From NCBI GenBank assembly GCA_963971285.1, contig OZ020246.1, positions 20,443,217 to 20,507,216 on the forward strand: DNA of 64,000 nt, written 5' to 3'. The stretch is from Astropecten irregularis (lineage: Eukaryota > Echinodermata > Asteroidea > Paxillosida > Astropectinidae). Below are positions 20,601-61,200 of the stretch, one piece after another (position 1 is the first letter of the stretch; every line of letters begins with the position of its first letter). The notes beneath the pieces were generated by a model. It had not been told where the DNA came from. It made no database searches and worked only from the letters and a program-made list of their open reading frames with translations. The translations under genes were made by a program, and so were the position numbers.

Positions 20601-23600
20601 TCACATCCCCAACTCTCAAAGCGCGCTCCGTTCAATCTTCCATTAAACCAGAATATGTCATCACCTTCACTGCTGCGCAATTACTCACCGAAGCGCTCGA
20701 CGCTTGGATTCTGGGATCACCGCTCAAATTGTTTTTGCTTGCAGTTTCCGTACGGAAAGAAAAAATATTCTTAGTTACTTAGAAATTCAAGTGTATCTTT
20801 ATGTACAAACAGCTATATGGATCATAGTTTTTTTCACAATTTCACGCTTGTTACTTAATTGTGGCAGTTTGACTTGACAGATTAATTATTCTATTTCTAG
20901 CTATTTGCACAAAAGGTCCCATTGGAGACCCTTTGAGGTTAATACTTAGAAATTGTGTGTAAATTCTAACGGGTACAGCTGAAAAGAGAATACAAGCTTC
21001 AAATGGAAGACGCTCGGTAGCCATCTTTGTTTAGAAACCCACATCCCACTCTGAAGCATCAGTCATAAGTGTAGGTTTCCAACATTGGTACCAGTCTACC
21101 ATCAATAGGGTTGTTTGGTTTTATAAAGCGTGATATAAACAGGGTCCAAGCACAGGTTTATCGAGATCATTCAGGGGGGGGGGGGGGGACAAGCTGTTTC
21201 ACAGCTCTTCGAAGACTGACCCGAACATTGACTTTGTATAAAGTCGTGAGTAATGACGGTCGATTAGGTCAGCCAATTATGTGTTCCGCATTCATGACAG
21301 CCCTCGGCACATGAGTTGGCAGTCTTGACTCAAAGCCGCCAGCGGTTTCACGACCGAACCAATCAATCAATCACAATCCAAACAAACTTTGTCTGTTTTT
21401 CTCTTCGTCGTCTTTTTTTTTTCTCTCTCTCTCAAGGCTTTTTGTTTTTTAATACCCAGCATGTGTTCTCCCAACCTTTGAAATCATCGAGGGTTCACAG
21501 CTCTTTGCAGTCATCTCCCTAGGCGGTAGCATTTGAAAAAAGAAAAAAAAAATCTTTTTTCGCTGAGAGGTCAGACAAAATGCTTATGTCTGGACCAATA
21601 TTTATAGCGGTATGCGTTTATGTTCCTGTCATAATCATGTTTATCGGAGTCGTATGTGGTTTGCGGCGATGACAGACGAGTTGAGTTCATGTGACCGATC
21701 TGATTGGGCGCGAACATGAAAATCAGATCTGACACGTTTGGTTCACGAGTTAATCACTTCGCTGAAATGGCCAAACCTAATATTGATTGCGAGGGCCGTG
21801 GGACATGTAAAATATGACCCGTTGGTACCATCTGACTTCGAGGGTAAATCTTGCCAACCTCATTTCACTATTTACCTAAGCTTACAATGCCCAATCCCCT
21901 CCCCTCCCCTCCTCCATCCCTCCCCCTCCCCCACCTCCCAAAGTGGTACATGCCTGGTCATAACCCTTTTTTTGGTATTAAAGTGGGAAAATGTACTCTT
22001 CCGATCCGTCCGTTTTTTCCCAAACTTCAGAATGAAAATCTAATGTGACATTCAATAAAATCGCTGGCATTCCAAAACATACATGTGTGTGGGGGTATCG
22101 AATGAAACATCACACAACGCTGTGGAAATAGCAATGAAAATCATTCTCCTTCTGATTGGTTGGACAATGTGTTTTGCAATATTGATTTGGATGCTGATAA
22201 GCTTTAAATTCCGTGCACATTTTTGCTCGCGCCGCAATTCGAGAAAATTCATGTGTGAAACGATGTTCAGCAATTCATTTTTCTTAGGTGTGAAAAGCAG
22301 TTTTAGGAAACAGTGCTTGTCTGTGAAAATCCAGGCACAAATTTGCACATAAATTTTCCCAAGCATGAAAATGTGTTGCTTAGAAATGTTGGTTTTTCAG
22401 CCAAATCTCGATGCAATTTTGATCTCAAACAGAAGACAGATATCTTGTTCCTTTTGTGTTTTTAGGGGAAGAAATTTGGTTGGAATACTTCGAAACCATT
22501 GATTTGTTTTTCAAAGGGGGCCAGGTGTTGAATAGTTTAAGAATGGTATGCTTAATATTTTAATGTATGATGGTTTATAGTTCATCCCAGAATAGGCTCT
22601 AATAGAAGAAAAAACACATACAGGCCCTAGCAAACGTTAATTTTATGCTTGTCTGAATTTTGGTCAATAGAGGGCAGTGTTCGGGTAAACCATCAGTATT
22701 GCTTGGTGTCTATGTGGTTAGCTCTTGAGCAGCATCCAGCATATAAACCAGCACATCCACCAAGTCCGGCACTCTCTCTCCTGAGGACGACTAGAGCACA
22801 CTGGTCGAAACGTCGAGAATCCACTCTCATCGATCCTTTTTAGGACCACACATCGTCCTAAAAAGAGATTTTTTATACATGGTGTCACTGCAAGCCTTAC
22901 TCATTCTGACGGAACTCCCCTTTGCCTTATCTCAAATGTGTCACAAAAGTGCAAACACAACATGGCTGCCCGAGATCCGGAGAATGTTCTTTCGGGGCAA
23001 TGTACGCCCAATGTATGCCGGAGGTTTCCTCTCAACTTAAATGTGCCTCAACTGGTTGGATATCCAGCAAGGCTTTTACCCTTGGTTCAACCCTACCTCT
23101 ACTAGCCCACTGGCCAAAAAAGTTCCAATAATAAGGCTCTTATAATTGGGCTCAACTGTTCAGGAACAAACCCCTCCCCCCCCAACCAACCAACCAACCA
23201 ATTCCAAAGTCTGATCTTTTTTTATTTCAATGTCGCAACTAATAGACTTAATTCCAGTAGAATGTTTGTGTAAGGCGCCTTCTCAAAATTGACTGTGCGT
23301 GCCCCCCGCGTTCTTTCTGCAGGATCCTGCAGACTTTTTTAACAAAAGAGCCCTTGACAACCCGTTCCAGCACGCCCAGAACGCTTCATTAAAATAACAA
23401 TAGGTATGAATATGTGTGATCTTCCGCCGACCGGCCGATCCAACAATGCTGGCTGACAAGTCATTTAAATATGAATACATTGTAGTTCGTCCATGTTATG
23501 ACTGGCCTGTTTGCAAAATGATCGGCAAGTCCCCCCAAAACGTATTTTCAGCCGGGGAAATAATAGATAGATTGGAGGTGACATATAATGCAGGTCTCAG

Positions 23601-25036
23601 AAAATGGTTTGCCAAGACCACCCAAAAAGTATTTTTCAGCCGGGAAATAATAGATCGGAGGGGAAAAATAATGCAGGTCTCAGAGAAAATGGTCGGCAAG
23701 TCCCCGAAAAACGTATTTTTCAGCCGGGGAAATAATAGATCGGAGGCGAAAAATAATGCAGGTCTCAGAAAATGGTCGGCCAAGTCCCCGAAAAACGTAT
23801 TTTTAAGCTGGAGAAATAATAGATCGGAGGTAAAAAATAATGCAGGTCTCAGAAAATGGTCGGCCAAGTCCCCCAAAAACGTATTTTTCAGCCGGGAAAA
23901 TAATACTGATCGGACGTGAAAAATAATGCAGGTCTCAGAAAATGGTCGGCCAAGTCCCCCAAAAACGTATTTTTCAGCCGGGGAAATAATAGATCGGAGG
24001 CGAAAAATAATGCAGGTCTCAGAAAAAAATGGTCGGCCAAGTCCCCCCAAAACGTATTTTTCAGCCGGGGAAATAATAGATCGGACGTGAAAAATAATGC
24101 AGGTCTCAGAAAATGGTCGGCCAAGTTCCCCCAAAACGTATTTTTCAGCCGGGTAAATAGTAGATCGGACGTGAAAAATAATGCAGGTCTCAGAAAATGG
24201 TCGGCCAAGTTCCCCCAAAACGTATTTTTCAGCCGGGGAAATGATAGATCGGACGTGAAAAATAATGCAGGTCTCAGAAAATGGTCGGCCAAGTTCCCCC
24301 AAAACGTATTTTTCAGCCGGGGAAATAATAGATCGGACGTGAAAAATAATGCAGGTCTCAGAAAATGGTCGGCCAAGTCCCCCCAAAACGTATTTTTCAG
24401 CCGGGGAAATAATAGATCGGACGTGAAAAATAATGCAGGTCTCAGAAAATGGTCGGCCAAGTTCCCCCAAAACGTATTTTTCAGCCGGAGAAATAATAGA
24501 TCGGACGTGAAAAATAATGCAGGTCTCAGAAAATGGTCGGCCAAGTCCCCGAAAAACGTATTTTTAAGCTGGGGAAATAATAGATCGGAGGTGAAAAATA
24601 ATGCAGGTCTCAGAGAAAATGGTCGGCCAAGACCACCCAAAACGTATTATTCAGTCCGGGAAAGAATAGATTGGAGGTGGAAAATAATGTGCACGTTCAT
24701 GCAAGTTCTTAAGACTTTTGCAATTGGGCGTCTTCCTGCGTTCCCACCGGATGTATTCATGAGGTCTTCCCAATGTATGTTTATTCATTGGCATCATTGT
24801 TGTGCTAACAAAAGCACACGGCTGGTCTAGCTCATTAAACTCGCCGTGCTTGAGAGCACACACCCGTCCAGTCTGCAGAATCACGGCCTCCTTGGCAACC
24901 GCAGACTCTCCGTGCGGAACGCAGACTTCCTGCAGAATAACGCGCAGTCAATTTTGAGAAGGCGCCTAACATAAAGGGCTCGGTGTGTGTCGAAGCTTCG
25001 GGCTTGACCATGTTTGCCCCAATGTTTTCATTCATG

Positions 25037-28000: not shown

Positions 28001-31000
28001 TGAAGCCAGACATTGTTTAACTTGGTAATCATTGTGCCCCTCTTGATACAAAGAGAAAAGAGGTTTGCTGACAAATGAATTGCTGTTTCCTCTTTCTGTG
28101 TGAAATGCTTGTCTGGGCCGTTCAATTCTTGTTCAGTTTTTCTTCTCTTTTGTTGTTGATATTGTCTTTTTTAGTCTCAATATGTAGAAGTCATGTCAAT
28201 ATGTCATTCAGTTGTTTAAGGTGGAAATGTGCATTGTCACTGTGTGTTCATGTCGAGTGCTGCATTTCGTAATTCAGTCAGTCCACACAGCACTCCATCA
28301 TTTGTCTAGATCACAACCGTGCACTTTCTAGCGTGCCCCCCACCCCCTTCCCCCCTCCCCCCTCCCCCCTCTCCACATCTTTAGCGTCGTCGTTGTCGGG
28401 TTCCAGCCAAATCCATTTGAGTTTGTCTGGTGTATTTACGGTCGGGAGCTGCGGATATGGAGTACATTGGCTCTGGGGCGTGGACGTTGCCATTGAAATT
28501 AATCAGTCTTATGACAACATCGCCCGGGGCCCAAAGGAGATTTACTGACATAGTATAGGCCAGCCAGACAAATAAAGTTGTTTCCGAGTTTCTTATTCAC
28601 CAACTCCACGGATTATAATACCACAAAGAAAAAAAGGAGGGATGTAATTCCAAGTAATGTAGTATAGAAGGAAAAAAAAAACCAACCTATTCAATTTTTT
28701 TTTGCGGAATATAAAATGGGCCTTTGTTGTGCCTTTTTATCTTTTATTAAAGCTGCAATGACCATTGATATCAAGACAGGATTTGATTCCACAATAGAAT
28801 AATGATAAGGAATCACCGGAAGGCCTGTGCATTCTCGGTACTTTTGCCCAAAATATTTTCGTTACTTGAATATTTCGAAACATTTTGGATTGGAGTATTT
28901 AGAGAGTGGATATGTTTTTTCCTTTTTTTCCTCTCAAATTGATCTGTTATTCAGGCATGCAATTTTTCCTCTGATCAGCTGATTTCCTCATTTTTCTCAT
29001 CACACTCATGCTGTTGAAAATAGAAAAACACTGCACAAAGTCTTGTAAAGATTATAAGTTTTTATTATCATCAAATAACCACAAGGGAAACTGACTGAAT
29101 TTTTAAAAATCATTGAAAGGTGAACGAAGAAATATAGACTGGAGCGGCATTCGAACTGGCAACCTCCTGATGAATACCTTACAGGCACTCTACCGACTAC
29201 CAACAGTCAAATTTTCTTTGGTCACCTTTTAATGATTTTAATTTTTTGTTTTCGATTTTTATTACAAGTGGAATTCTGTACAGTGGAATGTCACCATAAC
29301 GACCACAGCTTGATGACAGAAACTGTCTGTTTATAGTGGTCGTTCATTTATTATCACAATTTAAAAAAACAATGTTGGACATGTTTTGGAAGCCAAATTA
29401 GGAGCCAACTGATGATGTTCTGTGTAGCCAAATGTCCGGTATAGCAGTGTTCGGTGAAGCGGCGTTCATCTGTCGTGGGAAACAGTTGTGAATTCAGTGA
29501 GTGCTTCCTTCGTCGTTCGGCATAAGAATATGACTTATGGATTGCTGCAAGAAAAGGCGACCATTTTGGAGAGTTTAATAGCTCAGAATCCGTCTATTCT
29601 TATTCTTTCACCATAAGCTGGTCAAGATTGATCAAAGCAGACCTGTGTTCAACTTAGAAGCTATTTTTTTTAGAAGCTATTTGTTAAAAAAAATACCCAA
29701 ACAAAACTTATCATATTTTTGGTACACTTTGTTTTTGCCTAGAATTTTGTTTTGTTTTACAGCTTCACGGTATGTTTTTTTGTTTATGACGTCGGACTAT
29801 GACAACGATAGTCTGAAAAATATGTTCCAGCAGTACTACTTTTGAAGTTTGAAGCGTGATATGGGAAACATGTTTTTTTTTTTCGTTTTTTTTTTTGGTG
29901 TGTAATCCTTAGCCAGTAGCCATTTCCTACGTAACATTGTGCACGGTCCTTCACCTCCCTTGCCAGACAAAACTAGACTGATTTATTTTCATCTGGGGGT
30001 TGATATTAGTCCCAACCTCGTTGCTAGTGGCTAGCATGCATTCCAATCTATCACCCAGCCCAGCTAAACAAAGTACTGGCGGGTCCGAAATGACTAGGGA
30101 TAATTACAGAAAGAAAAAAAAAATTCTCTTTTTTTTATGTAACATGACAGAGTGTGCGCAAGCGTGGAGGATATTTTTTTTCTGTGTTTGTAATGCGGCG
30201 ATGCATACATAATGAAAGCAGGTGTCAGGTAAAACCAGACTTTGTTTTCGTTCAAATTTTTTTTTCCTCTCCCATTTTTCCCCCCTCTATTTTCTTCCCT
30301 CTTTTTTCATTCATCTCCTGAGAGAATCTGAGGGCGATGACTCGTGAACCTCTTGACAGAGTTAGTAATTACATGCACGGTGGGGGAGGGTGGGGGAGGG
30401 GGCAGGGGGGGTGTTTATTGTACCGGAATATTGTGAACGGTCGTGGAAATAACCAGTGCCTATTTGATGATTTGGATTTGGTTGTAAGGAACAGGTACAT
30501 TCAAATCAAATAATGATATATGACCTGATGTAGAAAAGCTCCCGCTTGTGTTTTAATTAATGAATCATTAAAAAGTGGACAATGAAAAATTGACTGGAGC
30601 GGGATTTGAACCAGCGATCTCTGGAATACCGTACCGGATTTCCTTACCAGAGTGCCGGGACGGTAACATTCCCCTGTACAAATTCCACTTAAAACAAAAA
30701 TCGATAACAAAGAATTATAATCATTGAAAGGTGAATAAAGAAAATTTGACTGTTAGAAGTCATGGTAGAGAGCCTGTACGGTATTCCGGAGATCGCTGGT
30801 TCGAATCATGCTCCAGTCAATGTTTCTTTGTTCACTTTTCAGAGACTTAATTCAGTCAGTTTCCCTTGTGGTTATTTGATGATTATTTAACAAGTATAAA
30901 TAAATTGCAAAATATGTTCAACTATTGCCTGGAGGACTAGCTACAGTTCCTAAAGTTTATACAAACATTGAAATAAACTAGGAGGAGGGGGATACTACAA

Positions 31001-34000: not shown

Positions 34001-37000
34001 TGTTGGTGTGTACGTTTTCCTTCCTGTTTTTTTTTTTTTGGTTCAAAGTGATTAGTGCAATTCATAGTCTGGTCTTTGTGCTTGAAGTTGAGGGCTTGTC
34101 TTTGTCTTGCTCTGTTTTGTTTGAGGAGGCGTTAAAATATTCCCCCGCCCCAGGCAACGGCCTGCGGATCTAAGTGTCTGTTTGCTGAAAGGATAATGCT
34201 ACCTTTTTCAGCGAGAGTGGCGACAATCGTCGACAGTTCAGTCTCGTCAAGAAGGACAGATTTCCGGAGAGAGCGGTTATTTTGAGCGGATCGATGTATT
34301 TCGTAGGTTTTAGTTCATTGACCCCATGTACTTCATATGGGTTGGGTTGACTAGACTAGACATGACTACAAAGCTTATGTATCTGAATTTGATTTAGTCA
34401 GTGTTGATGAATTGAGGTAAGGTTTCAATCAACCGCTGAACATGTGAGACTTGGGTCTTGGGCCTCGGGTCTCTTTCGTTCTGCACTGACAATCCTTGCT
34501 CAGGATCGACAAGATTTCCATTTGACATTTTTGTTGTTTTCCCAGTTGTTACATTGCATGTGTTTGTTTGAATAGAAACAGTCTGCTGCAAGCTGCTTTA
34601 TACTGTATTTTTGTTTTGCTCAGATAGTCAGGATCGAGAGCCTGACGCTTTGATCCCTGCCGGATCTTTTTGAAAGGATTGAAGTGTCAGGCCGTCCTAA
34701 CTTTTGAGCATTATTTATTTCAGGCCATCGTGCTGGTCGTTGACCTGTTTGCAGTGCATTTATTTAGTTGCTTTGCTACACTTTTTTTTTTTTTGAAAGA
34801 AAATGGATGGGAAATGGATGATATACAGCCACTCTGAAGACTTCCCTTTAGAGAAATCTATATGCAGCAACTTGGGGATACATGCTCCAGAATCAAAACA
34901 CAAATCCAACTGGAAATGAATGTAATTGGATCCCAGAGTTGGGCACCATGGGAACACAAAAACATTACCACAGATTTTCTCATTTTCCCGTCTTGCCCTA
35001 TATATGTACAGACGTCACAAGCACACCGTGGAATTCAACCGTGAATCCATACCTTGGAAACTGACTCTAGCGCCACCGACAAATGAGCTCTGAATTCATT
35101 TCAATGTGGAGACTTAGTTACAATGCATCCAGACAATTTTCTCCCTCCTTTTTTTTTTCTTTTTTAATAGCGCTGCATCTTTCCCGAATCATTTATTTAT
35201 TATCCCCGGTTTACATGTATCTGTGTGTGTTTTCTGTGTTTTGTTTTGTCTCTGGAGCAGGGTACCGAGCATATTGCCTGCAGTGCTGTCAGCCGATGTG
35301 GCAGATGGCTAGCCTACTCAGACGTGAATCGAGTACGCATGTTTCACCTCATTCTCTCTCCACTGTCACTATCCAAGGTAAGAAGAAATAATCCTCCCCC
35401 CTTTCCATCTTTCCACGAGTCCCCCAGGGGCGTCGGGCCGATGAAACTTTTTTTTTCTGTTCATAAAATTTTAAATAGGCCGGAGAAGGTACTGCATCTA
35501 TAGGGATTTATTTAACCAATTTGGTCGTCGTTTTTTTTGTTGGGGAATTTCTTTTATCGGAATCATATCCACATGAGCAAGAATATCATTAAAGGTAGTA
35601 TTATACTTTGGTAAGAAATCAAAACAGAAATGTTCACAGATTTACCTATAACCTACAGGATATGAAGATGGTGGCGGTAGAAACATACCGTTAAAATGTT
35701 TCCGCCTGAAGCGGTGTATTTATCCAGAAATTAGTAAAATAACGACCAAAAATCTTTTTGATCTTTTAAAAGATCAAAATTAAAATAGAAAAGACTAAGG
35801 AAATACTGGTGCTGTTTTTCACTGTTTTCTCAAAAAGTGGGCACCGTATGGGACTGAAATTTTCACAGATGACTGCTACTGTATCTGTCTCGATATTTGC
35901 CCATGAATCTGTATTTCTTTGATAAAAACCAAAGTATGATATCACCTTTAAGGACAAGGAAAAAAACAAAGGAAGAAATGATTTCGAATATTAGCGTGCA
36001 GGAGTGCGGAATGATTGGAATTGAAAGAGAACATGTTGAGAACATGAGATGTGAGCAATGGCTCTCTCAGTGCATTCTACGCTGACAGCGTTTTCATCCT
36101 CTTTAGACAGATAATATGAGTCATACAGGTTTTTTTTGTTTTCATCATACGCGCAGTAGACATGATCGCTCACTGCGAATGAAAATGTAATGGTCGATGC
36201 TACGAGCATATAACATTCATGTTCTTCATGTGCAATGTAGTCAGAATCTGTTTTGGGTAAGAACATATCCAACCAGACTCTCACAGATTTTTGTGTTGAG
36301 TATCTTGCCCTAGATTTGTATGTAAATAATAAATATAAAATAATTAGTTAAGTTCTTGTTTGACCTTTAACCTCCGCAAATCCTAACAAGGCATGAATGC
36401 CACAGACCCGTGCTCTTTTTTTCTCTCTGTCCAGTTTTTCGAGGCATTTTTTTGTCAAGCTTTCCCCGTTTTCATTTCCTGACATTCTATCAGGTTCCGG
36501 CACTTCCATCTGGTCTGCAACCAGCGCATTTAATGGCGTTCACCAAAAACTCTGAGCAGCTCGTTCTGGCATCCCAAAGTGGAGCCATTCAGGTGAGTTG
36601 AATTCCTCCTCAGTTTTCCTCCTCATAATTTTTTCTTCTTGTTTTCTCCTTGTTTTCTTGATACACTCTGGGCTTTTCCTAGATGTACAATGGAAAGCTG
36701 TCCTAAAACTCTGTTTCTCTTTGAAACACCTTGCCCTGATAGTCAGGTTGGCGTAGCGGTTCTTTCCTCGCCTTTCACCTCTGGCGGACCGGGTTCAAGT
36801 CCGGCTTGGTCCACAAGTGGACTGGAATTTCAGTCCCTATCTGAATCTGTGGGTTTTACCCAGAAAATTACTCTGGGGTTTTCCTCACACCTTGGAAAAC
36901 TGTATCTTCTTCTCATCATCTTTCCATAAAAGGTATCATCAGGCTTTTGAGCTACAGTGCCGAGGGTGCATTTGAGGAATCCTTGGTTTCATTACCAGAA

Positions 37001-40000: not shown

Positions 40001-43000
40001 TATATATGGTTATTTGTAGCGTGCTAGATAAGCAGCGTAGGGTTATTAATAGGCTCAAAGCTCTAAGGTTCAGTTGCCTTAAAACGCACAGCCCCCCTTG
40101 GGCATTTTTTGGGGGCTAGGAGCCTACCTGAACCCGATAAAGTCTAACGCTGTGTCGTTCGTTCGTTACCTCATGAAATGTACTTTGGGCGAGGTCGGGC
40201 AGGCCAGTGTAAAGGTACCGTGTCTGAGCTCTGTAGCCCCGTTCCATTCATGGGCGGCTAATACCCGTGATAACTGGAGATGGGTGTCAGTTGATCAAGT
40301 ATAGACTTTGTGACCAATATAGCTGCTCATTTTGCGGTCGTGTGAACACGGCAGGCCATTTTGGTTTTGACCTCAGAACCTGACTGCAGGTCTCATGGTT
40401 GCGGTTAATCTGTCTATCAGATTGGGATCAGTGAGAGATTTGAGTTATGAAGGCACGCTCTCCTGCCCCCCAAGTTATCCCCTTTAAGTCACTTGCTCCA
40501 TCTTTATGATTTGTTTTTCCCCCTTCCACAGTTGCAGTGCAGCCTACCGGGCTACAAGCACCAGCCGAGTGCCATGGCTGTGAACCCGCACACCCAGCAT
40601 CTGTTCATTGTCTACGCAGATCGCACCGTAGGTTTCTTGATCGATGACAGTCTGTTGCGCTTTAATAGTGGGCTATAGATGGGGGTATTATCACATACAG
40701 TGCAGAGTGACGGGGTTATCGTTAAATATGTCAAGTGCTCTGTACTTGGCACAGTGTCAACACTCACATCCCTTGCAGAGTGCCTTCTTAGAGAGAGTAT
40801 TATGGGATGGAGATTTGTGGTAACACCATGTTAATCATTTCTGTGTGAATATGTGTAGTTCGGTAGCAGAACGGCGGTACACCCAACACGTTGAATAGTG
40901 AGCTCTGTTCATCCTGAAGATGAACAGAGCATGCTGATCGAAATGTCAGGAATACCGCTGGTTCTTCTCAGAACCACGGATATTCACAAACAGAGGATAT
41001 CACTTCATATCTCCAAGTCATTGTACCTTCGCTAAAAGCTTAAAATATCGTCCTGAGAGAGTGGTGACAACTTCAGATATCTGATACAAAATGGCTGCTC
41101 GTTATGCCGTGTAAAGCATGGAGTGTTTGTAGCCAATTATCTATGAGCACTGATGTATAATCAGCCATTTTGTATCCATCCTAGGGACCCCAAATGAAGC
41201 TACACTCTCTGCAATAAGGGATTCCAATCCCTCATAGATAATAGCGCCCTCTAAAGTTTGTTCTAAGGAATAAAACACAAGTCAAGTTTTTTTCATTTTT
41301 TTTTACAAGCAACACTTTTGAATCTATTTGACGGATTGGAGATATGCACTTAACATCTGAATTCCCCAGACAACTAAGGACTCTTGTGATATCACATGAT
41401 CTGGGGCATACTTGTTTATTTTTCACAAGAAGAGGCTTGCACTTGTACATAGGCCGTGTCCCAAATCTCTGGCTGCGGCCGCAAATAACATACAAGTCTT
41501 TGGAAATGGCTGCTGTCACTGGCTAGTGGCTGCCATAGGTACATGTGCGTGTGTAATTTGCGGCCGTAGCCAGAGATTTGGGACATGGCCATAGTATCAC
41601 ATTAGGATACGACTGGCATAAAGGCACCAGACCATTGTAAAGCTATAGAAGGGTTACAATGCAGTCAGTTCTAACTTGAACCATGCGTTGTAGCAACAGT
41701 GTATTGGTTTACAGTCTGGAGACTTGAAATTTTTAGTGTGCACCTGCATTGAAATCAAGTCAGTGTACTAGACATTAATCAGACTTAATTCCGTGTAGAG
41801 GCTTGTTTAAGCCAAAGCAAACAGCTTTGACACATGGCTGTGACTGTTACTAAGGGCATTTCTCTGCACAGCCTAATGTGTCATTTCAGACACAAATTGA
41901 CCAAGCCGTAGCCGATTCGCTTAATACTAAGGTTTAGATTCTCAACATGTTCTTCCTTGCCTGCCTTCCTTCCCCTAGATGACCGAGTTTGACTTCATCC
42001 GTAAAGGATTAAACGCGTGGACCAAGCAGCTCCATAAAGTCGGACACCACGACGCATGGCTAGGCCGGCGGGAGACCATCACGTCGGTCACGTTTGACCC
42101 TGCGAATAAGGATCGTGTTCTATTGCAAGACTCGCAGGCCTTCTACGTCATCGACAAGAAGAAGGTATGTTGGAACTCGGGCTGTTAAAAATTCTGATTT
42201 AAGGGGCATGTACAACATTGGTTAAAAACCAAAACAGATATGTTCACAGATCTACGCATAAGTCACAAAGTATAAAGACAGAAATGGCAGAAACATACTG
42301 TGAAAATTTGTCAGCCTGAAATGCTGTTTTTGTCCAGAAAAGCATAAAACCAAATACCAAAACATTTTTTATCTTGAAAAGATTTTTGAAAGATCAAAAA
42401 TGAGACAGCTATTCCCACACAATTTGATGTAACAATTGCAACAGTTTTTCGCTGTTTTCTACTGTTTCCAATTATTAATTGACCTGAAAATTTCACAGGT
42501 CTGTTTTTATTCTGCAACAAATCAAATTATGAGCAGCCTGCAGCTGCTCTCTCACCTTTTAATACCAGTGTTGCACATGTTCTTTAAATGACGAATTAAT
42601 GATCTACATTAACTTTTCAAATCAGAGACTTCAACAGGTGCTCATTAGATCAGTTAAAAAATGAATTTCTGATTGAGTGATCGACAACAATATTTCAGTC
42701 ATCATCTATGATTCCTCTCTTAAAGACACTGTACTTACATCATCTCTTTGCAACTGTCATCAGTTTCAAATCCCTGGCAAATTATCAATTTATCCTTCGA
42801 AATCCAATTTATTTTGTATCTAGACAAAGCTCCGGCATTTTGTCTTTAAGAAGGCAGTTAATGTTCTATTGGTGATGACAGAAACCACCCCCCCGAAAAA
42901 AATGTTGGTAATTCTCGCCGAGAATCGCTGCGGGACACGCTCCAAACCAAATCAAATGAAAAGAAATGAAAAATCACGGGTTGTCAGTCAATAACCTCCT

Positions 43001-46000
43001 TTGAGAGCAGTGTCACCATATACACATCAATCTATATCCGGATCTAGTAATGGGATAGCACGGATATCGAGGTGTCCCAGCCAAAATCCATCGTTAGAAT
43101 TCACGCCCAGCATACATAACTGAAAACTGGGCTTCTATACACGTATATATATTTTGTTTAAAGCAAGATAAAAATGGGCAGTGCCCACCCTGAAAAAAAC
43201 ACTCTGGTCGTCTTTGGTTGTGGGCAGACGTATTAAGTGTCATTGCATGGATAGACCATGCAGAGGGTGATAACCTCAAGTTAGCCGATTTCAATAAAAT
43301 TTGGTGGACATGTACACTTGACCAACTTCTAAAAGAATGTAGAATATGAGCCAATTCTATTCAGTAGTTTTTGGATAAATGCCAAAAAGTGAATTTTGGG
43401 GTCTTCGGCGCCAGTTTTCAAAGATTTTCAAGTGGTTTTGGACAAGTTGCCATGAATCAAAAATGGTAAAAGCTACAATATTGCTTTTTCGCATGCAGCT
43501 TTCTGAACATACTGGCTAGTAAAATTCAAAAAATGTTTGAAAAATAAACTCTAATTTTGGAGTTATGGTCCTGAGAACAACCCTTACCCTAAGACATGGT
43601 GTTACGAATAGGTAGGTTTAGGCTCCAATAACTCAACTGCCACAGGGACATGAATAACAAAACTTGGTGGAAATATTACTAGTATAGTGGGCTTCCAAAA
43701 TCAGAAAGAAAAACTTTGGGCGCTCCTCTCAGTTTTGAAGGGTAACCATGGATATTATCATGAATTTGGAGCATTTTATAGTGCTGTCACCTATCAGCAG
43801 AATGTAGATCTATGCATTCAAAGCATAGGAGAGTTCCACATAGGATGGGGAGGGAAGGGTAGGGAGGTGGAAGGTGGTGAGAATGGTATTTTCTATTCTG
43901 AATGTGAATATATGTAATAATAGCAATGTGAAGACAATTTTAACTACCTTAAAGGAAATCATAGCTTATAACCAGATGACTAGACTCATTTTTAATGATT
44001 TTCCATTCCATACAATTCAACTAGAGAGAGCAATAGAGAAGAGGACAAAAATCTGTCGTGGGAACTATTCTTCATAAATCTCTTATTTCATGTTCATGTA
44101 CATTCATAGGATATAGATATATGCCAACGTTATTCGCAATATCACAATGCAAATTTCTCAATAAGAGTAAGGATAATCTATCCGACTGTAACGACACATG
44201 CACATAAACATTACTGAAATTACAAATGACTATCAGCCAAGCATATTTAATAGGATGGAGATATTGTCTTATCATGTCATCCTGAGCAAAACTGTAAATT
44301 TGTCAATTAAAGTAAAAATTGTGACCTATGGGGCAGTTTATGAATTAAAAAAAAAACCTGTTCACAAATCCACTTGCTGGATGACCTCAGTGTGCAGCCT
44401 GGACCTGGTCATCATATGGTTGGCAAGTTGATGCTAGTCATCAGAGTGACTGTCAGACTTTGTCAGGTGGCCACATTTCTGTTGGCAAGCTAGGCGAGAA
44501 AAGTAGATTGCCATCTGCTGTACATGTGTTGTCAGCTAGCCATCTTGTGGAAACCGGGCTTTGATTTTTCTGCAAACCAGTCCAGGATTTTCCTTCCTCC
44601 CAGTCTCAACGCCTCTGATGAATTCTTCAAAGAGGAAGTCTTTTACTGCAGCTGAAACTGCTTTGTTGTTTTCTTCTTTGCCTTAACTGCCCATCCATTT
44701 TTATTCGGACTGGGAGTCACGGACATCTTGGATTCAGTTGAAGTGGGCTGGTGTGATGATGCTGCTATTTGTAATACCTTTTCAGGCCACTCCCTTGCAA
44801 TGGCATCCAACTTACTGTCAGAAGCCGAGTCTGCAGTATGTCTTCCAACTGTCAAATGTTCAAACAAGGCCTCCTGAGTTGTAAAGGTCTTGTGACACGA
44901 GTCTTCAGTACAAGTGATACAAATACCTGACCTCATGCCACATCCAACTACTTTCTGTCTTAGAGCTCCAGCAGCAACCGCTGGATCAGAGTAGTCCTCG
45001 TTGACCTTGACCTTAGTGGGACCCTGGGGCTTGTTCTTCTTGAGAATGGCTTTGTAGGGGTAGAACTCTGGTTTTCCAAACTTGTACCCCCAAGTCACAC
45101 TCACTCCATCCTCCTGAAATTCAAAGTTAGTGAACTGGGTGATGTCAGGCCAAGTAACACGCTCTTCCATAGCCTCTTCACATATTTCAAGTACCGCAGG
45201 GTAGCATCCCCTAATACCCCACCATAGGTCCCCAAGGCAGTGTGCATTTCCAATGCACTAGTCACACTGTTGTCATCATTTACATAGCGGGTGATGTGCG
45301 TTTTCATTGGGGCTATCTTCCTGTCACACAGATCTTTACCAGCCTGGGCCTCAGAAAGGTCATACTGGCATATTTTCACATTCAGCCTCTTTCCAAGACC
45401 AGGAATGGCAAGTAAAAGTGGAGCACTGTGGTAGCATCCTGTGTTGTCTGATCTGAAGTACTATTCAGTGATGTGTGGTAATCAAGCCTCCATCTCCATC
45501 AGGGTAGCTTCAATCACAGACAGCATAGCAAACCAATTGCACAATGTTGACGAAGCAGTGGATCTGCAATAAGGAGAATAATCAGACACCCCAAGAACGA
45601 GTGAAAGATATATCGATATGATATTCCGACGCACATACAGACACAACGTATCCTCTGTGCCTGGTTGTTGGTGAAACTGTGCAATGTGTGCATAGGCCTA
45701 ACATATCCATGCATAAATAATATCAATTTAAACTATCTATAGACATCTCCGACTCGCATTCAAAACATGGCAATACCAAGGAGATAATTGCATGGGGAGG
45801 AGAATATTTGTTACTATAGAACGACACTTTTTGAAAAGTATCTTAAATATCATGTCAACATTCTATCATGGCTGCCAGTATTGGTTCCACTCACCTTGAA
45901 TTCATCGTCTTCTGTCTTGGTGACTGCAGCAGACACATGCCAGGAGATACCCTTTTCCCAATACCAATCCTGCTGAGCCTCTCTGAATGTGCAGGGCAGA

Positions 46001-49000
46001 AACTTCATGGTCCAGTCCATGGTGGTTAATGCCTGAGATGTCGTTAGATTAACCAGTATGTCTGATTTTGCCTGGACCTGGCTTTTCTGGCGCAGAAGGT
46101 GACCCTTTAGAATGAGGATTTGCTCTTCTGCTGTTTGTTTGTCATACAGCAGATGGTCTTGCTGCTTTGGATATCTGGTGTGAAAGAAGACCATATACAT
46201 TTTATGGCATAGCCAGAACTATTTTTGCATTAATCACAATTGTAATGTAGCCATGGGACTAAAACATTAACATTACCACCACCTAGATCACACATGCTTA
46301 AAATGCTATTGGTTAATATATCTAGACGTTGCCCAACGAATGTAATAATTTGCACCTACCTAATCCTATTGGCAATAAAACATTCCATATCTCAAACACT
46401 TCCTTCGAGACTGATGCCTGAATGGAACGGTCACGGCGAGGCTGTCGTTTTGAAGCTGCAGGATGGAGTGGGTGCTGATATTTTCTAGATGGCTTCCAGT
46501 TAAGGCCTAACTTAAAGCGATGGGTAGGACAGATGGTTATCTCCTGATCAACATCATCAAACAGCCCAGCACACAAGGCAATAAGTTCCCACTCAGTGTT
46601 TGGTGTGGTAGGCCGAGTAGGCTTAGTGCCACTACTGCTGTGTCGGGGCACTTTCTGACCAGAAAGATGACCAAGAATGTCCTTGTTGCACTTCGACAGG
46701 GTAATGCAGCTACATGTAGTTTCCTTTGGGTACTTTCTCATCAACCCACATGTCAAATCAGGCTGAACATGGTCAAACCCGCATTTAATGACCCTTAGGG
46801 TCTGAATTTCGTGATCCTCCTTTTGCATGTCTAGCTCATGCTGCATGGCTGCCATAATGTCTTACTCAGTAGACTATAGCGCCACAAAGAGTTTTCCCAC
46901 AGACAATCAAATTTTCAACCCCTATGTGATACGGTATGCATGTTGTAAGAGTGAAGGACTGTGGGAATGTGGTTGAATAGGCTTGGACATAGTATGATAA
47001 GGTTTCCTGGTGAAGAACTGGAAATCAAATAAATAAATCATCTCAAACTGGTGCAAAAACCGGTGCAAACTAGAGGTTTAAGGCCTAAATTACTCAAAAT
47101 AAATGAGCACGAAACTTCAAGGGCGACATAGCGCCCAAAGTTTTTATAACTTTAAATGAACCAACACTACTTCAGGTCTGTTGTAAACAAAAATTATGAT
47201 CCCAATCCCTGTGGCAGTTGAGAAATCACAACGTCAAGATGGTGTACTTTTCACAATTTAAGGAGGGGGGGTGTCTACTAATTGAAGGGACATGTGACCT
47301 TCCATGCTGCGGGTTATAAACAAAAGATGAAAATGGAAAGATACCTTAAGACCTCTAATTTGATCTTAAAGTAATTGTTATGTGGTCCTATTGCAGGGTA
47401 AGAATGAAAAAACTTTTAAAAATCGACATAATTGGCAATTTTGTAAAATAATTGCCATTTTTAATAGAAAATGCATTGAAATTGTTAATGCCAGTAAATC
47501 CTAAACGGCGCGATGTTTCACCGAACGGCTTAACCTGCCGTAATTGTACCCTAAGACGAAACTTTTGTGCAAATTTGAGCCAGATCCGTTATCCACCGGG
47601 TTATCACCTTCTGCAGATTTCTGCATGGTGTACTCATGCAATGACACTTAAGTGGTGGGCGAAAGAAGAAAACAGAGACCAAAGGACGAGGAAGCGAGTG
47701 CAAAGAATGAAAAATATGGCAGTTTTTCTTCGGCTTCCGTCCCAAATGTTATTGCCGTGTCTGGCCGACCCAGACAAATCTTGGCAAGCCTTCCTCCCCC
47801 CAACCTGACCCGAAAAGGCCAGAAACTGCCATCAAGCAAACAAACAAATAAAATCATATGATAAAATGTTGATAAAACGCCGTAACATTCATGCTATCTC
47901 GAAGTGAACTCGTCCCATATTCTTCTGCAGCTTTTATACAAAACATCCTCCTTCACCAACCCCCTCCAACCTTATTACCTAATCCCTTCCCTTATCATGT
48001 TATTCAATCTTGCCATACACATCTCTGCATACACTTAACCAGAATCAAAGTAGTCCGTCAGACAAACGCGTCCTATATTTTGACTTCAAAGACAAAATGA
48101 ATGAATAAATTGAATTACTCACACTTTAAAGCCCGTTTTTTTACCTTTTGTTTGAAAGCCGAGTGATTATCTGATACTGCTCTACTTTCCTTCTGCATGT
48201 CGCAAATACACAAATGTTAACGTTGATAACAAGAGCTCAACGACTGCTCTCATTTGTTGTGCAAAAAGTCTGATTTGGAAAGCAAGATTTTGGAAGGGCA
48301 TTTTTTTTTTTTTTTTCCCAGATTGCATTGAAAACAAAAGCATTATGTCACACAGATTTCCCTTTATACAACTAGCCGTAGGTATATATCATGTGACTTG
48401 CTGTCTTGCACTGCATCAGTGAGTGCTCCATAGCAACCAGGAGATTTCGAGTTGATAGCTAGAGGCAGGAAACAGGCCGTCATTAGTTATGCACTGAGCA
48501 ATTATAGTTATGTGATTCTGCATGCGTTGTGTCTGTTACTGTTGCTGTAAATTTATGTGTAACTTTGTTTCCAAGTGGAATTAAGAGATTCCAATCACAA
48601 ACCGGCAAAGGCACCATGTTGGAGAAAATAAACAATATTTTGTGTTAAACTCATAGAAATCGTGTGGGTTTTTTTTTTAAGTTGACTGAGCTGTGTTACA
48701 AAATCAAAAGATCAGAAAAAATAAGAATTGAAACTGCAAAATGTGGTTGATTTCATGAATAGAATTCGTGACAAGCAACAGCATTTCTCAGAGTATGTTA
48801 GATTTTTTTTCCCAAAGATTTGTCATTTGTCATTGTATTTTTTGGTCTGAAATAAGAAGCCCTATGCAATGTCGCCAACTTTTCTCTTTGAAACCCTCTC
48901 TTGAGCAACCCAAATAACAAACATTTATTGAGCAAGACATTTGTCGGTCTCAGCTTGTGCCTGGGTGTGGTTGAAACATCTTTAAAGATTGAAGTGACTG

Positions 49001-52000
49001 CAGATCCTCATGGGGGAAGTGCAGTGGAGACAGACAACTGATATATCTGTATTATCATTCGGAAAGATGAGAAGGAAAATGTAAAAAAGTATCACAGAAA
49101 TGCATTTGTCAGCTCTGTGCCGTGTTTCGTAGAGGAAAAAGTCGAGAATCTCGATGACAGCACAAGCGCACACACAATTTTATTTTTTTGATTTCCAACA
49201 AAATGTGCCCCGGGAAGTATCGTATTGCAGCCAATATTTCTGGAACCATCTTCCCACGAACATTGATGCGATCTTTTCATGAGAGGTGGCTGACATCTCT
49301 GCTCATTCAAGAATGGTGTCGTCAGACCGTGCTTTGTACATGTAGTAGCAGCCTGAGAAGACCGGATCAGATTATCTTCTTTTTGGGGGCTGTGGGGAGG
49401 GTTTCTTCTACTATCACATACTTTCTAAATATATAACAGCGTGGTAACTTAATAGCAGAGGTTTGGGGGCATTTCATGGACAGAGTTACTCAGGCTTATG
49501 CTTCCCTTACATAAATACATAAGATAAACACTATGGTTCATACATTCATTCATTCATTTATTCATTCATTCAAACGAAACTTTTTTTGAAAATTGCATGA
49601 TGGCGCAGTATTAAATAATTGATATGCAGTTGAATCTCAGCCCAGTGAATAAAAAACCAAGGGCCAGATCTGGATTGTCGGTTGCGGCTTGGTCAGTTTG
49701 TATCTGCAGCATCAGCCTCTGAAGAAATCTTTAGCAAGAGGGAGGGGTGGAGGGTTGTGAAATGTAGTCAGTGTTACCTCCTTGACAAGGAGTGTGTGCT
49801 ATCGGGGATCGACACTTCGGTAGAGCGGTTTCTATACAGACGATTCAATAAAATGGTGAGATTTGTGTATATCGAGTGGGATCAGGGTACAGGCTGTAAT
49901 AATGTGTCATCATTCTGTGGATTTGGACAAGGACTACCTGCCCTACGTTCCCACCCAACCACCACCCCTTACCTCCCTCCCCTTGATGCATCCTGCATAC
50001 ACCATACAGCAAGTGGCTGTTTCTTCAGGAGGGGGGCGAACATCAGCATTCATGTCAAACACGTTCACCATTCTGACAAGCAGCTGTGCCACGTCACACG
50101 GCCAAAGATAACATTGCTGCAGACAAGGAAAGGGGAGGGCCCCCAGTCTGCGTCCGTCCCGTCCTGTAGGAGACATGTTTTCTTATTGATGCGGGGATTA
50201 ATAGGACAAGACAAGGAGCCTGACTTATCACTTGATGTCGGGCAACACAGTACTCTGACACTCAAGCACCAGTCGCTGGGAAACCAATTGCCCTCATGTT
50301 TTTCAGCTCCTCATATAACCAACCCCCCCTTTCCCCTCCCCCCAACCCCCAGGGAAACCAAAAAATCGATAACTTTGAAATTAACAGAAACAACATAACC
50401 CGTAGACTTTACATTAACCCATCGCTCGTAGACTGCAAAGAAGGTTGATGGAATAATAAGACAAGGGGAGACGTTGCATGCTGCCTTCGTGCCAGTGCTT
50501 GGCAAATCTAGCCTCTGGCAGTCTGGGGGAAAAAAAAAACCAAGAAAAAAATAAACACACCAAACTTTATTAGTTTTGTCTGGCAGTGGCGGACAACGAT
50601 TCTTACGGTGTATTGCGAGCAAATTTTATGAAGCATGAAATTTTCTCTTCGGTTTTTTTTTTTTTTTTTTTTTGGTCCGGTTGTATTCGTTTATTTTCTT
50701 TTTCATGTTAGGTTTATGTATGTAATTTGGGGGGGTTCCAAGTCTGCCTCCATCAGCCAATGTCAGAAAGGGTTAGTTTTACGAAGTGTGTGCACCAGCA
50801 TGTTATACGATCTTATCAATTGCCTCGCATTGTTGCCCATAACATGCACGTTTAATGGAGTTTGGATAGTGTTTATGGGTTTTTCCATGGGTGCGTTTAA
50901 TGTGTTGATGTAAATACGATCGGAGGTTTTGCCAGATATTGAGGAGATACAGTCAGGTTTACGTAGTATCAGGGGAGTATTCAACTCCTCTTGGGTAAGA
51001 AATAAAGTCATTCTGAAGGAACTTGAGACAACGATCAAAACTACTATGTCCAGGTCAACATCCGTTGGATGTTAAAAGAGTGACGCATTCATGATGTCGA
51101 TATACATTATGAACGAAACGTTGAAGATTAACTCTCTGTTTTGGTGACAAATTGAATGATGGAACATTTCAAAAGATACATTTGACTGTGACATGTTGTG
51201 GGTTGTCATGCAAAATGTTACATGGTCCTGATTGGGTTACAAGTACGAGAAAAAAAAATTGAAATTAATTTGTAATTTTCATTTTTTTTTTACAGTGAAT
51301 CAGATATTGCTAAAAATTGCTCTTTTTAGGCAATTGAATCGTTACTTTTTGTCACGCATACATTATGTCTGACGAAAGCTCATGACAGAAATATCAGTGG
51401 TTGCACTACATATTTCCTGGCCATGCTCAAATCTGAACCAACTAGTGCAAGTTGAATTCCCTTCATGTATATCCGAACATTTTTATTTTTATGTTTTTGG
51501 TTGGTCTGATAGTTTGTTTTCGGTTGTCTGTTAACATTCAAGTGCCCCGAATCTTCATAAGGGAAAAAAATGTGGACATCGGTGTAGACAATATGACATA
51601 TGAATGACAGATTCTTTAATCGTTAATCCTAGTTTGTAGTTTGTAATGCAGATGGGTCTCATGCTTGCCCAGCTAAGATGAATGGTCTCTGAAGACATTG
51701 ATTTTACAAAGGCGATCGTTGTTACTGTCTTTCCCTCCCCCTCCCCCTGCCCCCCTTCAGCTTGAATCATATTGGTGAATCTAGTCAACGTATACTGCGG
51801 AATTAGTGTCGAATTGCTCAACTTTCATAACATCAATGAGAGGAGGCTATTCTTATTCCGAACAAAAATCTGGAGACATTGCTCGAACTTGTACTTGGCC
51901 AATTTTCATGCAATAGGTAAAAATAGTAATCATTGAAATATGTGGATCCGTTACATTCATGTAAGAATCGTTTGTACTTTCGCACTTCTATTTGGTTCGC

Positions 52001-55000
52001 ACTTCTCATAAGGTCTCAACGTTTCGACTAGCCTGCTCTAGTCCTCATCAGGAGACCATCAGGTCCCTGATTAGGACTAGAGCAGTCTAGAGCAGGCTAG
52101 TCAAAATGTTGAGACCTTAGTAGAAGTGCGAACGAAATAGAAGTGCGAAAGTACAAACGATTCTTACATGGTGTTTCCGTAAACCGATCCACATACCAAT
52201 TGTCACCATGCAAAGCCTCAAATCTTTCTAATTTAAATAAATATTAAAATAAATACGAAAAGTAAAATGTTGACCAAAAGTATCTATAGACTTGTATACC
52301 TTGTAATTCTGTGTGCAGTATTCAAATGTAAATTGAACATTTTATACACAAAATATGACCGATGAATTCCCCTTTGAGGTGCATGGAAATACCAGGGCAT
52401 TGTTTCTTCACATAGCTTGCTGTGCAAAGAACTCATTCATGTTATTGCATAAAATGTTTTTCGATGCTCATTTCAGACGTCTGCAGTTTTGTTTTAAAAG
52501 CAAATACTTGTCTCAGACCAGCACATTTTGTCAGAAGTCAAACAAAGTCTAGAGTTTTCACTGAGACAAGTAGGAAAGTAACCATAAACATTTGACACAT
52601 ACATGTATAAGTTGTGCCGATCAATCTTTTTTGACATAATTTTTTGTTTGCAGGCTAAGAGCTGTGGTTTTGTCGTCCTGTGCTTTTTGTTATGGTTTTG
52701 ATGTCGCATTGATTTTTTTTAGACATAATAAAGCTCAGAATGTGTTTTATATATATGGCTTTAATAACTGCACATTGTACACACACATTACAGTGTAGCT
52801 TCCTCAGTATTAGTCAATGCTTTTAACACATAATGAATTGAATATTCCAAATTCTTTTGTATGTTTACAAATCATCACATGATATCCCCGTGTTTGCATC
52901 TCAAAACAGCATCTCATAAGTCATCAAGACAAGGCCTAGGCCCTTCCACAGATTCCTCCATGTGGCTCAGGGTGCCTAGGGGCCAGAAGATGGTTGCAGA
53001 AAGGTCTTTGTACTCTCCTGCTCCTAGACTGTTGAATGATCTCCCATCGACCATTAGGATGGCTTCTAGTCTCCAGACTTTCAAGAGCCCCCCTCAAAAC
53101 ACACTTGTTATGTTGACATACACTGTTTCTTCCCTCTTTCGTTTTTCCATGCAATGTGTAATATCTTTTGTTTCATTTTCACATTATTCTTTGTCAAGCA
53201 CAATGATCAGTCATGGAATTTTGCGATATATCGTAAATACTTTTAGTATGTGGACCGGTTTGCAAAAACACTGTGTAAGAATCGTTTGTACTTTCGCACT
53301 TCTATTTCATTCGCACTTCTCGTAAGGTCTCAGCGTTTCAACTAGCCTGCTCTAGTCATCATCAGGAGATCCCTGATGATGACTAGAGCAGGCTAGACGA
53401 AACGTTGAGACTTAGTGCGAACGAAACAGAAGTGTGAAAGTACGAACGATTCTTACATATGATGTTTCCGCAAACCGATCCACATACCAATGGTATGTCA
53501 ACAGCGCACGTGCACGCAATTGTGAGCATGCGCGTGTTGTTTTGCACCTGCACTGTTGTGCGTGCGCTGTTGACGTAACGATCGGTTCTCAAAAGTCTCC
53601 CATTGTCATCATGCAAAGCCTCAAATTTTTCATAAATACTTTTACTGTTATCATTCAAAGAAACCCCAAGATTTGTATTTTATTTGCGGGAAGCACACTT
53701 GGTGTACCCTTATTTGAAATACCAATTTCTGAAAGCACAGAATGATCATAGTCGGGTTATTCTGATAAACCAATGACCATCTCAAAAGTGCAGGCCTACA
53801 GCTCTGCAGCCCACAATGAAACTGTAGACCCCTTCTTGCAGTTGAGGAGGCTGACAGAAAACCCCGGGATAATATTCCAGGACATGGTACTAGAGCAGAT
53901 TTGTAATAATGCTGATGTTTTCTGGTTGTTTCTTTTTTTGTAGCCTGTTCCATCAAAGTTTGGGAAGTTGTTCAACCGTGGACTGGGAAGCCCTCCCCTT
54001 GGAGAAGCCAAACAGCACGGATTCAGCATCTGCCAGAAATACAAGGTATGATACTCACCGGAAGACAAAGTCTCAGTCTCACCTGGTCTGAATTTACAAC
54101 CACAAAAACCCCTTCATCCGCCTCTCTACTCCTAAATGTTTTCGCATTTCAAATCTGTTGCAACCCACTCCCATATTTCTCAAACTCTTAAGATAAACTT
54201 CGTGAAAGTTATAATGGTCAGAGCATACTGGCCGGAACATTGAGTAAACCGGCTCTTTTCAGAGCTACCCCTTACTCACAAATGTATGTCACATGGTGTT
54301 ACCGCAAAACCTAGGGAGACTTTTGAGAATCGGTCTTCATGTCAACAGCGCACGCACACGCGTCTCCCATTACTTTACTTTACTGGACAAGTCTTGCTTT
54401 TTTGATGTAGCATAGGGAAATGCAAGATCTTTAAGAATCCTAAGGCTCATGAGAGTAAGTCTTGTTAGTTGAACTTTGGAACTTTGGATGCTGAAGACTG
54501 TATGGATCTGGCAGACATCTTGGGGTGAATCTTAAAACTGTCAAGACTTCCAATGGAACCATTTTTCCTGACATTCATTCAGTGATGTGATTGAATCTCA
54601 ATATCGTCAGATTTCTTCTTATATCTTCATTTTTGATTCTTCTTTCGCCGACTGAAACATGTTTTGTTGTTTGCTCATCGACATATGAATTCCGTCCTTT
54701 GGTTGGGATGTTTTATTCCTTGTCTCTCCTAATGACCGTCAGCTTTCATCTGAGGTTCGCAAATCTTGAAAATCAAATCATGGCTATGCTTAAATGACCC
54801 GAGGTTGATTTCACGAAGCCCTACCATCGATCTTAACTCAAGTTAGGAAGGATAACCCATCGTAGGGGGCCTGTCCTACATAGGGCTGCAGTGCATCATA
54901 AGCCCTACGATTGATAGTAAGTTACGATGAGTTTTGTATACAATGCGGCTAAAAAGGCCACTTGTGATATCTAAAATAAAAACACTAAATGTGAACAACG

Positions 55001-60305: not shown

Positions 60306-60374
60306 CTAGTAGACAGAAAACAAGAGAACAGCCGATCAGAATTAGGCCTACCATATTACAATGACAAACATACT

Positions 60375-61200
60375 GGGGGTACAACTCCATACTGGGGGAA
60401 CTACTCCCATACTGGGGGAACTTCCATACTGGGGGAACTACTCCCATACTGGGGGAACTACCTGGGGGCACTACTCCATACTGGGGGAACTACTGGGGGA
60501 ACTACCGAGGGAACTACCGGGGGCACTACTCCATACTGGGGGAACTACCGGGGGGCACTACTTCATACTGGGGGAACTACCTGGGGGCACTACTCCATAC
60601 TGGGGGAACTACCGGAGGGCACTACTCCATACTGGGGGAACTACCTGGGGGCACTACTTCATACTGGGGGAACTACTGGGGGAACTACCGGGGGGCACTA
60701 CTTCATACTGGGGGAACTACCTGGGGGCACTACTCCATACTGGGGGCACTACCGGGGGACACTACTCCATACTGGGGGAACTACCGGGGGGCACTACTCC
60801 ATACTGGGGGAACTACTAGGGGGCACTACTCCATACTGGGGGAACTACTGGGGGAACTACCGGGGGCACTACTTCATACTGGGGGAACTACTGGGGGAAC
60901 TACCGGGGGGCACTGCTCCATACTGGGGGAACTACCGGGGGGGGACTACTTCATACTGGGGGAACTACTGGGGGAACTACCTGGGGGCACTACTCCATAC
61001 TGGGGGAACTACTAGGGGAACTACCTGGGGGCATTACTCCATACTGGGGGAACTACTGGGGGAACTAACTGGGGGCACTACTCCATACTGGGGGAACTAC
61101 TGAGGGAACTACCGGGGGGCACTACTTCATACTGGGGGAACTACCGGGGAACTACCTGGGGGCACTACTCCATACTGGGGGAACTACCGGGGGGCACTAT
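60375..61200 (+). repeat. G-rich minisatellite, about 32-bp composite unit
   Basis: About 25 units mix CTCCATACTGGGGGAACTAC with CTGGGGGCACTA and CCGGGGGGAACTAC-type half-units. GGGGG runs recur every 13-17 bp. Open frames across it (152 aa) are repeat translations. Confidence 0.93.

Follow-up and report, generated by a model that had tools for sequence, protein, structure and literature searches.

What is the sequence between a pair of diverged inverted arms in the genome of the sea star Astropecten irregularis? The locus lies within a 64,000-nucleotide stretch of contig OZ020246.1 that was analyzed as a whole (hereafter, the window). A sequence-only reading had proposed that positions 43195-47705 are an unclassified DNA transposon whose antisense gene encodes a DDE-like protein with a C2H2 finger. 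In our analysis, the best explanation is that positions 43233-47651 are a dead, ~4.42-kb copy of an autonomous cut-and-paste DNA transposon with a DDE/D transposase, a reading to which we assign a probability of roughly 55%. Thus, the proposed kind of element was retained as the best reading, with its inverted boxes and a protein that matched no Pfam transposase model, but its limits were not. That the interval is a transposable-element relic of some kind is likely.

The window contains three plus-strand matches to UTP4 (U3 snoRNA-associated protein 4; chain 7mq8_LN): 14745-15011 (residues 229-311, E 0.00052), 35258-35404 (residues 388-436, E 0.00018), and 41976-42164 (residues 549-611, E 0.0028). 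The left end of the element is 1.07 kb beyond the third match. The final 75 residues of UTP4, 612-686, were not located downstream in the window, so the element lies either within one of the late introns of UTP4 or immediately 3' of it. Other repeats were also present. An inverted pair at 29067-30883, with exact words of 35 and 18 nt and measuring 1.8 kb end to end, is possibly another TIR element. Foldback-like repeats occur at 51959-53458 (sharing five inverted words, each exact over 14-35 nt) and 8766-9244 (80% identical to its own reverse complement over 495 columns). The segments 12924-12970 and 15250-15296, where a GGTTCGAAT box adjoins an inverted 22-nt match, look by eye like two tRNA-derived SINE copies. 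Finally, minisatellites span 23515-24689 (an 84-bp unit repeated 13.9 times) and 60369-61187 (a complex array of 19- to 172-bp units).

Inverted arms and element boundary

The element's two arms are each ~0.5 kb long and comprise an outer box and an inner box ~0.4 kb further inward, with poor alignment between them. As in TIR DNA transposons, these terminal inverted repeats surround a gene. The left outer box (43233-43275, plus strand) matched the right outer box (47599-47651, minus strand) in two ungapped segments: 29 of 32 positions between 43233-43264 and 47651-47620 (score 25.4), and 16 of 17 between 43259-43275 and 47615-47599 (score 14.8). The inner box on the left (43632-43724, plus strand) matched its counterpart on the right (47130-47222, minus strand) at 59 of 93 ungapped positions (score 18.2). 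By comparison, the maximum ungapped score among 37 random pairs of 900 nt was 13.4. Identity in the inner box was concentrated at its ends, which were exact (17/17 and 16/16) and separated by a 60-nt spacer that was equally long in both arms and matched at 26 of 60 positions. Allowing up to three mismatches, these 17- and 16-nt words had no occurrence in the window outside the two arms.

When the arms were aligned in full with gaps, the score was 111, which was beaten by 2 of 295 random window pairs. With the first 45/55 nt removed, the score dropped to 74, and no fewer than 8 of those 295 random pairs reached 75 or more. In a shuffle test, the gapped alignment of the same arm region scored 114 versus a maximum of 95 in 100 shuffles. 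Of the diverged half-kilobase terminal blocks described earlier, three boxes stood above the random-pair null while most of the arm length was unalignable. Since exact words would not be expected to survive uniform decay in otherwise unalignable sequence, the boxes would be the parts that were conserved while the element was alive. They are probably transposase-binding sites, as they have kept their similarity and the intervening DNA is not alignable. The left outer box contains a 7-bp hairpin, TGCATGG-N5-CCATGCA (43244-43262; z −3.70, with 1 of 200 shuffles as good); the right outer box folds otherwise (z −1.48, 16 of 200 shuffles as good). One 10-mer repeated inside each arm was taken as chance.

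The patchy alignment of the arms, together with the occurrence of other inverted pairs in the window, is also consistent with a different origin: a broken, orphan C2H2 host gene, encoding no transposase, that either lies by accident between inverted fragments or was carried by another transposon. Against this, three collinear boxes enclose the gene. With six tandem arrays left out of the count, the window had only four inverted pairs that were exact over 16 nt or more and spaced 2.5-6 kb apart, and three of them were the element's boxes. The fourth (10882/15731) was longer, at 29 nt, but stood alone.

The best-supported ends of the element are the TTAA at 43233-43236 on the left and the TTAA at 47648-47651 on the right. 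At each, the inverted similarity starts with the TTAA, and the next outward base differs. The TTAA counts in the inverted match as well because a palindromic duplication joins that match. The boundary suggests a TTAA target-site duplication, as judged from a single copy. By our own estimate, the chance of finding any 4-nt palindrome at the boundary was ~0.06 (1 in 16), and that of finding TTAA itself was ~0.008 (1 in 120). We consider the odds that TTAA is the target site of this element to be about even. With TTAA taken as the boundary, the sequence inward of it begins with GT at both ends, giving GT..AC termini.

A real transposon with another boundary, either 43195/47705 or one marked by a duplication of 6-9 bp, for example GTGGGC, appears rather unlikely. 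The limits 43195/47705, put forward in the sequence-only reading, depend on the similarity TCGTC-TTTGGT common to both sides outside the TTAA. This match was equalled by 52 of 2000 random pairs of 45 nt and, when longer spans were considered, by 211 of 2000 (80 nt) and 773 of 2000 (150 nt), and these limits were rejected. Direct repeats other than TTAA occur close to both ends: GTGGGC at 43220-43225/47655-47660, and the 7-nt TGAAAAA at 43191-43197/47708-47714, beside 43195/47705. However, the first 12 nt of the corresponding termini were alike at only 2 and 4 of 12 positions, respectively. Moreover, the end-pair scan listed ten pairs with direct repeats of 6-7 nt, three of which arose from the arms' own TTAAGTG words.

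The antisense gene relic and its predicted protein

The probable dead transposon, with TTAA as its candidate boundary, contains a gene relic that lies wholly between the arms on the minus strand, from a start ATG at 46855 to a stop at 44643. Three exons were predicted. Exon 1 (46356-46855) carries the ATG and a Cys/His-containing N-terminal region in an open frame, with a candidate donor, AG/GTGCAA. Exon 2 (45895-46174) includes the motif MDW with the candidate first catalytic Asp, D220, between a candidate acceptor and a donor (AAG/GTGAGT). The splice of exons 1 and 2 preserves the phase, and their joined reading contains no stop. Exon 3 (44643-45563) carries RSDN (D300), SEAQAGKDLCDR (E332/D338/D341), and the C2H2 finger. 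All splice donors and acceptors are candidates picked by eye. Exon 3 is interrupted by in-frame TGA (45484-45482) and TAG (45463-45461) stops and by a frame change near 45205-45235 that was seen from two overlapping open frames; the splice phase points to a further frame change near the start of this exon. The joined reading is 567 letters long and includes four X; its lesions are the two in-frame stops, the observed frame change, and the deduced one.

Codon-position bias in the four gene pieces was equalled by 83 of 1739, 68 of 1765, 203 of 1718 (exon 3), and 5 of 1707 random plus-strand stretches, the frames of the pieces having been chosen for being open. This bias supports coding. The exon-3 count weighs against the transposon reading, as does the chain of open frames, for which 43 of 888 control windows did as well. 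Together, the ordered minus-strand frames, the in-phase junction of exons 1 and 2, and the codon-position bias bear out the earlier description of an antisense, intron-containing gene relic. As the gene appears to have introns, it would not be a processed copy, which argues against the host-gene explanation.

DDE/D transposases have a third acidic residue some 30-45 residues after the second. In the joined reading, the acidic residues occur in DDE/D order with the spacing D-79-D-31/37/40-E/D, where, from this single sequence, the third residue may be any of E332, D338, and D341. The gaps of 79 and 31/37/40 fit those of DDE/D enzymes. The motifs on which the earlier proposal was based, namely MDW, RSDNTGCYH, and SEAQAGKDLCDR followed by a C2H2 finger, were thus all found in the translation, in an order that again argues against a host gene. 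From MDW onward, the protein can be read by eye as strand-strand-strand-helix-strand-helix-strand-helix, resembling an RNase H-like fold. AlphaFold2 models from single sequences were unusable for both the 120 residues around RSDN (pLDDT 36.7) and the C-terminal 196 residues (pLDDT 36.3).

The predicted finger (44847-44915, minus strand) matched PF00096 with an E-value of 0.014; its score of 16.2 bits falls short of the model's curated threshold, 25.2. Its spacing, C-x4-C-x12-H-x5-H, fits the C2H2 pattern C-x2-4-C-x12-H-x3-5-H. Presumably, the same motifs occur in the same order, as MDW..RSDNAGCYH..GKDxCDR, in animal proteins labelled as C2H2-type or uncharacterised, including those of marine invertebrates.

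Searches for relatives

The joined reading matched no Pfam-A transposase model; only four zinc-finger models were returned, all sub-threshold, in a scan limited to E 10 whose HMMER filters drop most matches above ~0.1. No transposase match beyond chance was found in the PDB or PHROGs: a PHROGs match of exon 2 to a minor head protein (E 0.14) and a PDB match to an MHC chain (E 1.2) were taken as chance. Protein scans of viral contigs with each of the four gene pieces confirmed no relatives. For two of the pieces, 30 and 4 viral-contig stretches contained a short pattern, and all failed tblastn. Motif patterns gave 0 matches in viral contigs and five in genome contigs. The latter were all bacterial, with similarity over 9-15 residues at the motif (E 0.007-0.023), and are chance matches by construction. 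The exon-3 piece had no relative among phages. The missing relatives say little because the collections searched contain no animal genomes. Within the window, neither a second copy of the element nor an empty site was found. Among the matches listed, the titles and abstract openings of the literature described neither the protein nor the element.

Overall, the gene between the arms is likely to be a DDE-type transposase belonging to the 43233-47651 element. This enzyme is probably unclassified and DDE-like, matching none of the transposon family models tested. Neither fold nor homology proves its identity as a transposase, which leaves some room for the broken host gene. Considering the enclosing boxes, the apparent introns, and the motif order, we regard that origin as unlikely.

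Proposed mechanism and comparison with TTAA-targeting transposons

We infer the fold, catalysis, target duplication, and mobility of the element from its sequence. In the living transposon, two ~0.5-kb arms would have carried the conserved inverted boxes, the outer ones bounded by TTAA. A single, apparently spliced antisense gene would have encoded a transposase of ~567 residues comprising a Cys/His N-terminal region, possibly for DNA binding; a core that the order D-79-D-31/37/40-E/D predicts to be of the DDE/D RNase H type; and, at the C-terminus, a C2H2 finger. This enzyme would bind the boxes and cut at the TTAA-flanked ends, and joining of the excised element into a TTAA would duplicate that site.

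A more tentative and somewhat doubtful proposal is that the element belongs to a superfamily of DNA transposons in animals that has yet to be named. Its members would target TTAA, end in GT..AC, and have half-kilobase arms that are alike in patches and contain paired inner boxes; their DDE/D transposase would combine a Cys/His N-terminus with a C2H2 finger at the C-terminus. With one copy only, membership of an unnamed group cannot be proven. If true, this proposal would account for many orphan proteins of animals. Should intact relatives have an RNase H fold and lie between TTAA-bounded inverted boxes, a group of animal proteins now called uncharacterised would become a named transposase superfamily, which repeat libraries could mask, and another TTAA-specific enzyme could be studied beside those of piggyBac and Kolobok.

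The TTAA at the boundary also raises the possibility that the element belongs, in diverged form, to one of two known superfamilies that target TTAA, Kolobok and piggyBac. According to PMC9587614, Kolobok elements occur in many animals, generate TTAA duplications, have 5'-RR..YY-3' termini, and encode transposases that almost all contain a zinc finger. That source also describes a C/DxxH motif between the second D and the last E as common to Kolobok, hAT, P, MuDR, and Dada. Elements of the piggyBac superfamily use TTAA as well. Their termini are 5'-CC..GG-3' (PMC10045372).

The element resembles Kolobok in its TTAA boundary and in its DDE-like protein with a zinc finger. However, its termini begin with GT rather than RR, and its finger follows the candidate catalytic residues instead of being placed among them. 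No C/DxxH was found within the 70 residues after D300, where three His residues are preceded at −3 by G, M, and L; the last E may lie further on. In addition, Pfam recognised no second gene in the pieces of the element that were scanned. The resemblance to piggyBac consists of the TTAA boundary and a single gene, whereas the termini begin with GT rather than CC and the protein had no Pfam match. Based on the GT..AC termini and the lack of C/DxxH from the 70-residue stretch that follows D300, we filed the element in neither superfamily and consider such membership improbable. The working mode of the element would most likely be that of other cut-and-paste DDE/D transposons.
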